A stretch of DNA of 64,000 nt, from positions 1,426,001-1,490,000 of the forward strand of contig NZ_QQRR01000001.1 in NCBI RefSeq assembly GCF_003439925.1, read 5' to 3'. Under the pieces are notes generated by a model, which ran no database searches, was not told where the DNA came from, and saw only the letters and a program-made list of their open reading frames with translations. This document shows positions 2,054-49,760 of this stretch, piece by piece. The stretch comes from Haloprofundus halophilus. Its GTDB lineage: Archaea; Halobacteriota; Halobacteria; Halobacteriales; Haloferacaceae. The position numbers and the translations under genes are program-made. The stretch's first letter is position 1, and each line of letters begins with the position of its first letter.

Positions 2054-3870
2054 TGGCCGACGACAGCATCGCCGTGGTCGACCTCGACCGATGTCAACCC
2101 GACCGCTGCAACTACGAGTGCGCGAACTACTGCCCGCCGAACCGCACGGGCAAGGAGTGTATCACCACTCGCGGCGAGGACACCGAAGAGGGCGACCCCG
2201 ACCAGATTCGCATCTCCGAGGAGATCTGCCTCGGCGAAACCTGCGGCATCTGCGTCGAGAAGTGTCCGTTCGACGCTATCGAGATCATCAACCTGCCGCA
2301 GGAACTCACCGAGGACCCCACTCACCGCTACGGCGAGAACGCGTTCGCGCTGTACGGCCTCCCGGTGCCGGAGCCGGGGAAGGTGACGGGTATCCTCGGG
2401 CCGAACGGTATCGGTAAGTCCACCGCCGTTCGCATCCTCGCCGAGGAGATAACGCCGAACCTCGGCGACTACGGCGCGGAGCCCGACTGGGAGACGGTGC
2501 TCGACCGCTACCGCGGCACGGAGCTCCAGAACTACATCGAGCGCCTGATGGACGGCGACATCACCGTCGCCCGCAAGCCGCAGTACGTCGACCAGATTCC
2601 GAAGCAGTTCGACGGGAAGACCCGCGAACTGCTCGAACACACCGACGAGCGCGGCCAACTCGACTACCTCGTCGACGAACTCTCCATCGCCCCGGTGATG
2701 GACCAGTCCATCGACTCCATCTCCGGCGGCGAACTCCAGCGCGTCGCGCTGGCGGCGACGCTCGCGCGCGACGCCGACTTCTACTTCCTCGACGAGATTA
2801 CGCCGTACCTCGACATCGGCCAGCGCGTCAAGGCCGCGCGCCTGATTCAGGAACTCGCCGAGGACGACGCCGACCGTTCGATGCTCGTCGTCGAACACGA
2901 CCTGGCGATTCTCGACCTCCTGACCGATACGCTCCACATCGCCTACGGCGAGCCGAGCGCGTTCGGTGTCGTCACCCCGCCGAAATCGGTTCGCAACGGC
3001 ATCAACGAGTACTTGAAGGGCTACCTCTCGAACGAGAACATGCGCATCCGGCCGAACGCCATCACGTTCGAGCAACACGCGCCCCGAGAGACGGCCAAGA
3101 GCGCGCCGCTGGTCGAGTACCCCGACCTGACCAAGTCGTACGGCGAGGGCGAGTTCTCGCTCGACGTCGAGGGCGGAACCATCCACCACGGCGAAGTGCT
3201 CGGCGTCGTCGGTCCCAACGGTATCGGGAAGTCGACGCTGGCGAAGATGTTCGCCGGACAGCTCGAGCCCGACGAGGGCGAACTCGACTTCCTGCTCGAC
3301 ATCGCCTACAAGCCGCAGTACATCGAGATCGACCAGCCGATGCGCGTCGACGTCTTCCTCTCCTCTATCACCGACGACTTCGGCTCGTCGTACTGGAACA
3401 CCGAGGTCGCCCAACCGCTCCAACTCGAACGCATCATGGAGCAGAACCTCACCGACCTCTCCGGCGGCGAGCGCCAGCGCGTCGCCATCGCGGCCTGTCT
3501 GTCGAAAGACGCCGACCTCTACGTGCTCGACGAGCCGTCGGCGCACCTCGACGTCGAACAGCGCGTGCAGGCGACGACGGCCATCCGCCGCTACGCCGAG
3601 AACCACGACGCGACGGTGCTCGTCATCGACCACGACATCTACATGATGGACCTCTTGGCCGACCGCCTGATGGTGTTCGACGGCGAACCCGCCCAGCACG
3701 GTCACGCCTCGACGCCCCAGGAGATGCGCGCCGGGATGAACGACTTCCTCTCGGACCTCGAAATCACGTTTCGCCGCGACGAGCGGACGGGACGCCCGCG
3801 CATCAACAAGCCCGGCAGCCAGTTGGACCGCGAGCAGAAGAAGCAGGGCGAGTACTACTACGCGCCGTAA
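2053..3870 (+). CDS. abce1: Ribosome recycling/biogenesis ATPase ABCE1 (RLI)
   Basis: A 605-residue ABC protein that splits post-termination ribosomes together with aRF1/Pelota and acts in the cytoplasm. The N-terminus carries two ferredoxin-type cysteine clusters (Cys-rich stretch at residues 14-36 and CLGETCGICVEKCPF at about 60-74) that bind two 4Fe-4S clusters. Two ABC domains follow: Walker A GPNGIGKST at 116 and again at 387, with signature motifs SGGELQR and SGGERQR, and LDE Walker B motifs after each. Length matches the archaeal family. Start is fixed by the TAATG overlap with the upstream membrane gene. Its release partner aRF1 lies about 5 kb downstream on the other strand. Confidence 0.97.
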   Translation: MADDSIAVVDLDRCQPDRCNYECANYCPPNRTGKECITTRGEDTEEGDPDQIRISEEICLGETCGICVEKCPFDAIEIINLPQELTEDPTHRYGENAFALYGLPVPEPGKVTGILGPNGIGKSTAVRILAEEITPNLGDYGAEPDWETVLDRYRGTELQNYIERLMDGDITVARKPQYVDQIPKQFDGKTRELLEHTDERGQLDYLVDELSIAPVMDQSIDSISGGELQRVALAATLARDADFYFLDEITPYLDIGQRVKAARLIQELAEDDADRSMLVVEHDLAILDLLTDTLHIAYGEPSAFGVVTPPKSVRNGINEYLKGYLSNENMRIRPNAITFEQHAPRETAKSAPLVEYPDLTKSYGEGEFSLDVEGGTIHHGEVLGVVGPNGIGKSTLAKMFAGQLEPDEGELDFLLDIAYKPQYIEIDQPMRVDVFLSSITDDFGSSYWNTEVAQPLQLERIMEQNLTDLSGGERQRVAIAACLSKDADLYVLDEPSAHLDVEQRVQATTAIRRYAENHDATVLVIDHDIYMMDLLADRLMVFDGEPAQHGHASTPQEMRAGMNDFLSDLEITFRRDERTGRPRINKPGSQLDREQKKQGEYYYAP

Positions 3871-18859: not shown

Positions 18860-19402
18860 ATGGTCATCTCGTACCTGGTCTCTGCGGTCTGGTCGATGCT
18901 GCCCGCCTACGTGCCGAACAACGCCGCCGTGCTCTCCGGCGGCGGCGACCCCATCGACGGCGGCCGGACGTTGGGCGACCGCCGACTGCTCGGCGACGGG
19001 AAGACGTGGCGCGGGACCGCCGTCGGCAGCGTCGTCGGCGTGCTCCTCGCCGTCGGTCTCAACCTCGTCCGCGAGCGCGCCGAGAGACGGTTCGGCGTCT
19101 CGCTGCCGGAGTTCAGCCTCGGCGGGGCCGTCGGTCTCTCCCTCGGCGCGATGCTCGGCGACATCGCGGCCTCGTTTCTCAAACGTCGAAGCGGACGTGA
19201 ACGCGGTGCGTCCTTCCCGCTTCTCGACCAACTCGATTTCGTCGTCGGCGCGCTCGGACTGGCGAAACTCCTCTCGCCGGCGTGGTTCTCGCGGACGTTC
19301 ACCCCGGGTCGAATCGTCGTCGTCGCCGTCGTCACCCCGGTGTTTCACCTCGTGACGAACGGCATCGCGTATCTGCTCGGGCTGAAAGACGAGCCCTACT
19401 GA
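18860..19402 (+). CDS. carS: CDP-archaeol synthase
   Basis: A 180-residue integral membrane enzyme that transfers CMP from CTP to digeranylgeranylglyceryl phosphate in archaeal ether-lipid synthesis. Characteristic motifs are [29 protein letters not shown] (cytoplasmic active-site loop, residues about 32-51), [21 protein letters not shown] and [12 protein letters not shown]. Four to five helices. The ATG at 18860 gives the standard short N-terminus; an upstream ATG at 18836 overlaps a TATA-like GTTAAATG. Confidence 0.95.
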
Positions 19403-19618
19403 CGCACCTTTTTGCTGCGGAGGGTGCGCTCTGCGCACCCCCACTTGCAAAAATCTGTCTTCGTGAGCGAAGCGAGACCGAAGGTCTCGCAGGCCATGCG
19501 GGTGACTCGCGGGTCGCCCGCAGACGAAGCGAAGGAAGGCTCGGGAGAGCTCCGCTCTCCCGGTGCACCAAAAAGCCCGCTCGCTCGTTCCGCTCGCTCG
19601 CGGCTCAGAAACTCGCTT
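19403..19618 (+). repeat. Hairpin-rich intergenic element A
   Basis: Directly after the carS stop. Four stem-loops in a row: 19422-19440 (8-bp arms, loop TCT), 19472-19490 (8-bp arms, loop GAA), 19498-19521 (9-bp arms with one mismatch) and 19543-19561 (8-bp arms, loop TCC). The first hairpin is framed by TTTTTGC and GCAAAAA, themselves an inverted repeat. Then follow CCAAAAAGC and repeated CGCTCGCTCG. The T-run after the stop can act as an archaeal terminator. The same scaffold recurs at 24446-24544 and 49627-49760. Confidence 0.75.
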
Positions 19619-24190: not shown

Positions 24191-24445
24191 ATGTCTAACC
24201 TCGTACTGTACGAACTGGAGGGCTGTCCCTTCTGTACGAAAGTGAGGAACAAGCTCGCGGAACTCGACCTGGAGTACGAGTCGCGGAAAGTGCCGCGTTC
24301 GCACTCCGAGAGAACCGAAGTGAAGGAAGTCAGCGGACAGACCGGCGTCCCGGTGCTCGTCGACGAGAAGCACGACGTTCACGGGATGCCCGAGAGCGAC
24401 GACATCGTCGCCTACCTCGAAGAGACGTACGGCTCGGCGAGTTGA
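24191..24445 (+). CDS. Glutaredoxin-like protein
   Basis: An 84-residue thioredoxin-fold protein. CPFC at residues 12-15 is the redox site, TGVPVLVDE at about 51-59 holds the cis-proline, and GMPESDDIVAYLEETYG is the closing helix that binds glutathione or an equivalent thiol in the family. Halophiles use gamma-glutamylcysteine instead of glutathione, so the in vivo reductant is uncertain. The last 55 bp before its stop are repeated exactly 158 bp downstream. Confidence 0.92.
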   Translation: MSNLVLYELEGCPFCTKVRNKLAELDLEYESRKVPRSHSERTEVKEVSGQTGVPVLVDEKHDVHGMPESDDIVAYLEETYGSAS

Positions 24446-24544
24446 ACCGCGAGCGAACGAAGTGAGTGAGCGGCTTTTTGGTCCAGATTTTTGCACCGAG
24501 CGGTCCGCTTCGCGGACCCGAGGTGGAAAAAGGTGGACGTCGAC
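24446..24544 (-). repeat. Hairpin intergenic element B
   Basis: Related to element A but in the opposite orientation. Plus strand reads CCGCGAGCGAACGAAG, then GGCTTTTTGGTCC, AGATTTTTGCA, a hairpin GGTCCGC-TTC-GCGGACC (24502-24518), then GGAAAAAGGTGG. Reversed, it follows the end of the minus-strand gene at 24612 just as A and C follow their plus-strand genes. It lacks the roughly 100 bp of extra hairpins found in A. Confidence 0.7.
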
Positions 24545-24599
24545 TGCCCGAGAGCGACGACATCGTCGCCTACCTCGAAGAGACGTACGGCTCGGCGAG
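24545..24599 (+). pseudogene. Duplicated 3' end of the glutaredoxin gene
   Basis: A 55-bp exact copy of 24387-24441 that encodes the last 18 residues of the glutaredoxin (PESDDIVAYLEETYGSAS) and then a different stop (TAG instead of TGA). No start codon or CPFC half accompanies it, so it is a gene fragment. Together with the original it flanks element B as a direct repeat. Confidence 0.9.
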
Positions 24600-24611: not shown

Positions 24612-24953
24612 TCACCACTCGACGCCGCGGGCCATCTCGTAACTCCGCCTGACGAACGGCAGCAGCGACTCGAGTTCGTCCGGCGAGATGCACACCGTCG
24701 CCCACGTCTCCACGATACCCGTCTCGCCGCGGAACGGGTCGGCGAACCACTCCTTCTCCAGCGCCTCCCGCGCCTCGCTCGTGAGGTCCGTGAGCGCCAA
24801 GCGCATCCCGTCGACGACGGCGAACGGTCGGTCGCCGACGCAGTACGTCGCGTAACCGTTGCGATGGCTGATGCGGACGCCCGGCCACGAGAGGACGAGG
24901 TTCTCGAACGCCTCGCTCAGCCGTCCCGACCGCTCTGCACTCGGGTAGACCAT
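24612..24953 (-). CDS. Small protein, possibly MmcQ/YjbR- or DUF5519-like
   Basis: A 113-residue soluble alpha/beta protein: LSEAFENLVLSWPGVRISHRNGYATYCVGDRPFAVVDGMRLAL (residues about 12-54), then two helices and a hydrophobic C-terminal helix LESLLPFVRRSYEMARG. The order (helix, PGV, strand pairs with F-A-V-V-D) recalls the MmcQ/YjbR cyclic-amidohydrolase-like or luciferase-type DUF5519 folds, but I cannot decide between them. Monocistronic; ends next to the duplicated glutaredoxin tail. Confidence 0.7.
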   Translation of the reverse strand: MVYPSAERSGRLSEAFENLVLSWPGVRISHRNGYATYCVGDRPFAVVDGMRLALTDLTSEAREALEKEWFADPFRGETGIVETWATVCISPDELESLLPFVRRSYEMARGVEW

Positions 24954-47955: not shown

Positions 47956-49623
47956 ATGAGCCAGCGAATGCAACAGGGTCAGCCGATGATCATTCTCGGA
48001 GAGGATTCCCAGCGCGTCAAGGACCGCGACGCGCAGGCGTACAACATTCGCGCGGCCCGCGCGGTAGCGGAGGCCGTCCGCTCCACACTCGGGCCGAAGG
48101 GGATGGACAAGATGCTCGTCGACTCGATGGGCGACGTCACCGTCACGAACGACGGCGTCACCATCCTCAAGGAGATGGACATCGACAACCCGACGGCCGA
48201 GATGATAATCGAAGTCGCCGAGACCCAGGAGGACGAGGCCGGCGACGGGACGACGACGGCCGTCGCCATCGCGGGCGAACTCCTCAAGAACGCCGAGGAC
48301 CTCCTCGAACAGGATATCCACCCGACGGCGGTCATCAAAGGCTACACCCTCGCCAGCGAGAAAGCGCGCGAGGAAGTCGACAACATCGCGACGCAGGTCG
48401 ACCCCGACGACGAGGAGCTGCTGAAGAAGGTCGCCGAGACCTCGATGACGGGCAAGGGCGCGGAGCTCAACAAGGACGTGCTCGCCGACCTCGTCGTCGG
48501 CGCGGTCCAGCAGGTCACCGTCGAGGCCGACGACGGCTCGCACGTCGTCGACATGGAGAACGTCAAGATCGAGACGCAGACCGGTCGCTCCGCCGGCGAG
48601 TCCGAACTGCTCCGCGGCGCGGTCATCAACAAGGACCCCGTCCACGACGACATGCCCGTCGAGTTCGACGAGGCGAACGTCCTGCTGCTCAACGAGGCCG
48701 TCGAAGTCGAGGAGGCCGGCGTCGACACGAACGTCTCCATCGACAGCCCCGACCAGCTCCAGCAGTTCCTCGACCAGGAGGAGGAACAGCTGAAGAAGAA
48801 GGTCGACCAGATCGTCGACTCCGGTGCGGACGTCGTCTTCTGTCAGAAGGGCATCGACGACCTCGCCCAGCACTACCTCGCCAAGCAGGGCGTGCTCGCC
48901 ATCCGCCGGACGAAGAAGTCCGATATCGAGTTCCTCAAGAACGTCGTCGGCGGCAGCGTCGTCACCGACCTCGACGACGTCGGCGACGCCGACCTCGGCT
49001 TCGGCTCGGTCCGCCGCGACGAGGAGGACGAACTGTTCTACGTCGAGGGTGAGGACGCCCACGGCGTCACGCTCCTGCTCCGCGGTTCGACCGACCACGT
49101 CGTCGACGAACTCGAACGCGGCATCCACGACGCGCTCGACGTCGTCGCCACCACCGTCTCCGACGGCCGCGTGCTCGCCGGCGGCGGCGCTATCGAGGTC
49201 GAACTCGCCTCCCGGCTCCGCGACTTCGCCGACTCCGTCTCCGGTCGCGAGCAGCTCGCCGTCGAGGCGTTCGCCGACGCGCTCGAACTCGTCCCGCGCG
49301 TCCTCGCCGAGAACGCCGGTCTCGACGCCATCGACACGCTCGTCGACCTCCGCGCGGCCCACGAGGACGGCGACGTCCGCGCCGGCCTGAACGCCTTCAC
49401 GGGCGACGTGGAAGACACGTTCGAGGCGGGCATCGTCGAACCCGCTCACGCCAAAGAGCAGGCGCTCTCGTCTGCCACCGAGGCCGCGAACCTCGTACTG
49501 AAGATAGACGACATCATCGCCGCGGGCGACCTCTCGACCGGCGGCAACGACGACGAGGAAGGCGGCGCACCCGGCGGCATGGGTGGCATGGGCGGTATGG
49601 GCGGCATGGGCGGCGCGATGTAA
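47956..49623 (+). CDS. Thermosome (group II chaperonin) subunit
   Basis: A 555-residue ATP-driven chaperonin subunit that builds a double ring with a built-in lid. N-terminal [29 protein letters not shown], the ATP motifs [13 protein letters not shown] and [15 protein letters not shown], and a Gly-Gly-Met-rich C-terminus (repeated GGMGGM) typical of halophile Cct/Ths subunits. Halophiles have up to three paralogues; which one this is cannot be said without comparison. A lone gene with its own promoter. Confidence 0.96.
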
Positions 49624-49626
49624 CAC

Positions 49627-49760
49627 GACCTTTTACGCTACACTCGGGCGGCAACGCCGCCCTCGTTCGGTAAAAGCTCGGCCAAAAGCACTCGTCGCTC
49701 GCTTCAGTCGCTCCGCGACTTCCGCTTGCGACTCGGCCCGCTCGGGCCTGACGGCCCTCG
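49627..49760 (+). repeat. Hairpin intergenic element C
   Basis: Starts just after the thermosome stop. Outer inverted repeat CTTTTAC (49630-49636)/GTAAAAG (49670-49676) encloses a hairpin GGGCGGC-AAC-GCCGCCC (49646-49662). Then come GGCCAAAAGC and CGTCGCTCGCTTC-type repeats. The order T-run, hairpin with 3-nt loop, A-run, CCAAAA, CGCTCG-repeats equals element A. Likely also the thermosome terminator. Confidence 0.65.

Follow-up and report, generated by a model that had tools for sequence, protein, structure and literature searches.

The window, a 64,000-nucleotide stretch of Haloprofundus halophilus contig NZ_QQRR01000001.1, holds three related elements at the ends of protein-coding genes (Table 1; the classes and gene X are described below). 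The earlier note had proposed a common order of parts and a common type of stem for them, and the sequence at A, B and C bears this out. The inner stems are GGGTGCGC/tct/GCGCACCC in A, GGTCCGC/gaa/GCGGACC in B and GGGCGGC/aac/GCCGCCC in C. T-run, hairpin and A-run had been taken as separate features. When A and C are folded, T-run and A-run pair with each other as the outer arms of a single palindrome; each element is thus a long palindrome around a strong inner stem and not a series of three parts. The fold energy of A stands clear of dinucleotide shuffles (z -4.4), and the difference is weak for B (z -1.5) and C (z -1.9). The reverse strand of a typical unit reads TTTTTGGTCCAGATTTTT, then the stem, then AAAAAGGTGG, the first of these containing two T-tracts. 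Because the T-run and the A-run are the two arms of a palindrome, a T-tract would be met first by an RNA polymerase arriving from either side.

Table 1. Elements, repeats and flanking genes at the three sites in the window
Feature	Coordinates	Strand	Basis
Element A, class I, with a second repeat nested inside	19403..19618	+	T-run after stop codon; fold
Nested second repeat within A, forming part of its extra hairpins	19455..19540	+	Four matches in the same genome
Protein-coding gene immediately upstream of A	18860..19402	+	Codon-usage call
Element B (class II, hairpin type), antiparallel to the abutting + strand gene	24446..24544	-	Sequence, repeats, core pattern, congeners
Gene X of B, 84-aa glutaredoxin / GST N-terminal-domain protein	24191..24445	+	Codon-usage call; family search
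X tail (glutaredoxin-like), first copy of 55-bp exact direct repeat	24387..24441	+	Repeat search
Detached second copy of X tail, beyond B	24545..24599	+	Repeat search, congener comparison
Convergent gene beyond the detached tail	24612..24953	-	Codon-usage call
Element C (L014), class I	49627..49760	+	Core pattern, stop adjacency, congeners, fold
Protein-coding gene immediately upstream of C	47986..49623	+	Codon-usage call

As previously described, A and C follow plus-strand genes, whose stop codons end at 19402 and 49623. B had been placed simply after a minus-strand gene. It begins at 24446, right after the plus-strand stop at 24443-24445 and antiparallel to that gene, and the 55-bp exact tail copy at 24545-24599 separates it from the minus-strand gene that ends at 24612. 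B is flanked by exact 55-bp repeats, one being the end of the glutaredoxin-like gene and the other its detached copy. The proposal that orientation tracks the upstream gene therefore survives for class I and fails for B. The extra hairpins ascribed to A are present, with the correction that they include a different repeat with several hairpins, which has four matches in the genome: in A, in the element at the L027 site, at L219 and, partially, at L220. Loci noted for this second repeat are 19455-19540, L218, L219 and L220, with nesting in two of the putative terminator elements; the copy at L219 lies 9 nt after a tRNA-Lys gene.

A dispersed family with two placements

The family was searched with the core pattern AAAANNTNNNCCAAAA, and the same pattern reversed served as control. 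Further copies, expected by the earlier note, are plentiful: the pattern has 32 matches in this genome against one for the control, is present in 109 of the 145 genomes covered by a Halobacteria-wide search, and occurs 12-26 times in each of the four congeners searched. It finds B and C in the window (0.03 expected) and misses A because the second repeat sits inside A. An exact 21-mer returned 16 stretches from a species-level genome set, all haloarchaeal by title, with genera including Haloferax, Natrinema, Halococcus, Halorussus and Halosimplex. The elements are a real, dispersed haloarchaeal family with fixed position and orientation, and across 30 placed copies their orientation relative to genes is non-random, as had been anticipated.

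Copy number is very uneven: in one genus of the same family (n = 15), ten genomes have no copy, four have one and one has two, set against 32 here. Genome G133 (L138, L170 and other loci) carries a variant core, AAAATCTCCTCCAAAA, in many copies. Half elements also occur, consisting only of a AAAAATCTGGACCAAAAA-type double T-tract after a stop, with neither left T-run nor tail repeat (L241, L252, L253, L255; L129, L103, L213). Searches for a known counterpart were negative within their scope. Twelve loci gave no family match in Rfam, the two matches returned (E 0.73 and 0.89) being below the gathering score and outside the elements; the gene before A had no match in a plasmid collection; a literature search covering few subscription journals found no printed description of the repeat; and of 50 papers whose text has one or more of four motif strings, none of the 20 listed was haloarchaeal by title. 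A viral contig with an 18-mer match was taken as chance, its DNA being AT-rich and the palindrome absent.

Genes were called by codon usage, and 30 of the 32 copies in this genome, those with loci returned, could be placed. In class I the T-run comes right after the stop: it starts 1-8 nt past a same-strand stop in 15 of the 30 copies, which amounts to 15 of the 18 outside class II. The 15 include L009, which follows a stop and yet has a tail copy on its other side. The remaining three are L027, with a degenerate T-run, L028, with an extra T-run nearer the stop (both judged by eye), and L005, a true exception. As background, TTTT lies within 12 nt of the stop in 2 of 54 called genes in the window, and these two are the genes before A and C. 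For other genera we used an unchosen set (n = 30), in which 16 other genomes are represented by their first match and 14 by a second match as well; a T-run 3-7 nt after a stop was found in 9 of 30. In two Halococcus species the unit lies directly 3' of a tRNA-Ala gene. No direct repeats flank class I copies within the range searched.

A stem beyond shuffles (p<0.02, in a test that preserves base composition only) was found in 13 of 16 copies here that have no tail repeat and in 7 of 20 others outside class II. These 20 stems have 18 distinct arm sequences, and 19 of them have a 3-nt loop; the frame of T-run and A-run is conserved while the stem sequences are not. Only 2 of 21 tail-repeat copies have such a stem. 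Selection on structure, as suggested earlier, thus agrees with the hairpin-type copies and not with most copies that have a tail repeat.

Class II is a second class that the first reading had missed. Here the element runs opposite to a gene, X, whose tail is repeated on the far side of the element. It comprises 12 of the 30 placed copies, at 8 loci, B included, and the duplicated gene has the same orientation to the element at all 8. In the unit next to X, the distance between the stop of X and the CCAAAA end is 7-14 nt, rising to 31 and 83 nt in the cases with a right arm. The flanking-repeat score was at least 23.5 in 11 of the 12 copies, while 240 random placements gave no score above 18; L018, the twelfth copy, scores 14 and shares an array with L019, and L009 and the remaining copies also score below 23.5. 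Across 24 class II loci the flanking direct repeats are 29-110 bp long. Some loci in this genome hold two or three units in tandem, repeating every 96-103 bp, and longer arrays occur elsewhere. The repeat score was at least 19 in 9 of the 30 copies of the unchosen set, L141 (19.0) being barely above the control maximum, and 12 of the 30 fit neither class. At 16 named haloarchaeal loci the score was at least 21 in nine; the left T-run is absent in four, and none of those four has the repeat. At L221 (G088, about 2100-3216) two elements, 1.1 kb apart, have two different copies of one gene tail and enclose two small genes; G049 also has the second of these tail copies.

The X genes are ordinary ones: GatA, GatB, IlvD, Dph6, TYW1, an M29 peptidase, a radical SAM protein and the glutaredoxin-like gene, with family searches covering 10 proteins. 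Judged by resemblance of tails or protein ends, several X genes seem to recur across haloarchaeal families: radical SAM (L016, L151, L172), M29 (L018, L021, L169, L174), IlvD (L030, L175) and Dph6 (L010, L150). Deep vertical conservation of the tail-element unit was considered for the M29 peptidase and rejected: among the best-scoring 30 orthologue loci from 59 genomes, 27 have neither unit nor repeat, so descent alone does not account for this recurrence. A single cassette integrated site-specifically was likewise ruled out, since a different gene tail is repeated at each locus.

Turnover at orthologous sites and divergence of detached tails

Comparison with congeners showed that sister species can lack an element at the syntenic locus. 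The B site is filled in only one of four congeners (G081) and is empty, with a single tail, in the other three. Between the two filled genomes the repeats have four differences, common to both copies within each genome; this identity within genomes implies either that the copies were converted to each other or that they arose independently. G021 has an empty L016 site and G055 an empty L006 site. The L021-23 array has three elements here, two in G021 and one in G081, whereas G055 has none and G099 retains only a degenerate remnant; in arrays such as this one, n elements are accompanied by n+1 tails. At L009 two different units flank the tail copy in this genome; a unit like the first is the only one in G055, and G021 has one like the second. 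At site A an element stands at the orthologous stop in 5 of 5 genus genomes compared, G055 and G081 carrying another subtype with other stems. Site C has the element in G099 and G081; it was not seen in G055 and is partly deleted in G021.

The detached tail (x) was compared with gene X at 24 loci, with only the copy next to X used. Nine of the 24 had been fetched on purpose, mostly for their array-like look, and two loci were left out: L164 (repeat present, no X called nearby) and L141 (not entered). Mismatches fall 13, 6 and 56 at codon positions 1, 2 and 3, and 60 changes are synonymous and 15 are not, against an expected synonymous fraction of 0.42 if x drifted freely with X under selection (p 3e-11). 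This bias implies that x and X diverged as coding sequence, and such divergence points to recombination between lineages. At L142, picked for having diverged most and the sole locus where x was compared with other lineages, the detached tail agrees with the X of congener G145 at 51 of 60 positions and with its own X at 47 of 60, while the own X matches that of the closest congener at 59 of 60. Together, the synonymous bias and L142 would fit a tail from another lineage, or an imported X allele that replaced X after the duplication.

Proposed function, origin and known systems

We propose that the family probably consists of bidirectional T-tract terminators. In Haloferax volcanii, T stretches are the intergenic termination motif, and the efficiency of T5C as a terminator in a reporter was 95% (PMC7237163); by analogy, transcription arriving from either side should stop at the unit. 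The outer T-run and A-run arms would present a T-tract to RNA polymerase on both strands. A class I unit would end the mRNA of the upstream gene 1-8 nt past its stop and block antisense transcription from the other side; in class II, X would end at the double T-tract of the reversed element. A terminator is likely given the stop-adjacent T-runs, the tRNA-Ala adjacency and the retention of an element at site A with different stems. Against it counts the position of the inner stem, which comes after the first T-tract.

That the hairpin instead stays in the transcript and blocks exonucleases, as a stabiliser or processing signal of the mRNA 3' end, would agree with class I stems being kept while their sequence changes. 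It is nonetheless very unlikely: the T-tract precedes the hairpin, and does so in both directions, and only 2 of 21 class II copies have a comparable stem.

The origin of the class II tail repeats is the most interesting part of the family. Tentatively, a chromosome with an element after X may have recombined illegitimately at the CCACC end of that element, the partner being an X tail from another lineage, and later recombination between the repeats would have expanded, shrunk or homogenised the array. Taken by itself this course of events is possible, with the chances somewhat against it. Its support is the synonymous bias, L142 and the two-unit L009. The combined explanation, bidirectional termination together with a lineage-recombination origin of class II, we hold to be slightly on the probable side. 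Counting against it are L005, an exception to class placement, the 12 of 30 unchosen copies that fit neither class, and the identity of the B tail repeats within each genome, which obliges it to include later conversion. A more speculative extension, which we regard as doubtful, is that terminators spread between lineages: an incoming X with its terminator would recombine at the outer end, the resident tail being kept as a fossil, and the arrays would form a layered record of the alleles that haloarchaea exchanged in the past.

Insertions of a non-autonomous mobile element close to gene ends, each making a long target duplication of variable length that has since decayed in the old class I copies, would account for the clean empty sites with a single tail, the n+1 tails in arrays such as L021-23 and the presence of units in many genera. 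The mobile family raised by the earlier note gains from the empty sites and the in-place turnover, and loses from the fact that no target duplication of fixed length was found. Repeat length varies from 29 to 110, the orientation of the duplicated gene is constant at 8 loci, and the differences between x and X are mostly synonymous, unlike a free drift of x after insertion; we consider such an element unlikely. Local tandem duplication of gene tail and terminator, confined to one lineage and caused by slipped replication or unequal crossing-over, is less probable still. The tandem arrays and the variable repeat length agree with it; however, it predicts an element after the last tail, where there is usually a bare tail, and the synonymous bias and L142 require divergence as coding sequence.

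If the combined explanation of two-way terminators and recombining tails is right, haloarchaea share a stock of ready-made terminators, gained and lost at gene ends, and gene 3' ends are remodelled as units. The detached tails would then be a direct handle on DNA exchange between archaeal lineages, and the units compact parts for stopping transcription in two directions in halophile genetics.

Bacterial REP and BIME sequences are imperfect palindromes dispersed through intergenic regions, frequently just past stop codons, and are marked by a conserved palindrome sequence and a REP-associated transposase. The present units resemble them as dispersed intergenic palindromes often found past stops, and differ in that the stem sequence is not conserved, whereas the frame of T-run and A-run is.

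The PATE, SMR and MITE repeats of Haloquadratum walsbyi are likewise short, dispersed, non-coding and palindromic, with strain-specific presence (PMC3119063). PATEs and SMRs are described there as lacking target duplications, and MITEs as carrying the terminal inverted repeats of known transposons. Here the copies stand at gene ends; direct repeats of 29-110 bp flank class II at 24 loci, so class II does not fit PATEs or SMRs so described. A MITE would have a target duplication of the length typical of its transposon; the repeats here vary from 29 to 110.

There is also a likeness to the T-stretch terminators of haloarchaea (PMC7237163), in which a T-run lies just past genes, with C or G as the next base, in a GC-rich genome. 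A T-run shortly 3' of a gene end was found for 15 of 30 copies in this genome and 9 of 30 elsewhere. Unlike those terminators as described there, the T-run is here an arm of a palindrome, each strand has a T-tract, the units form a recognisable dispersed family, and a repeated gene tail often accompanies them.
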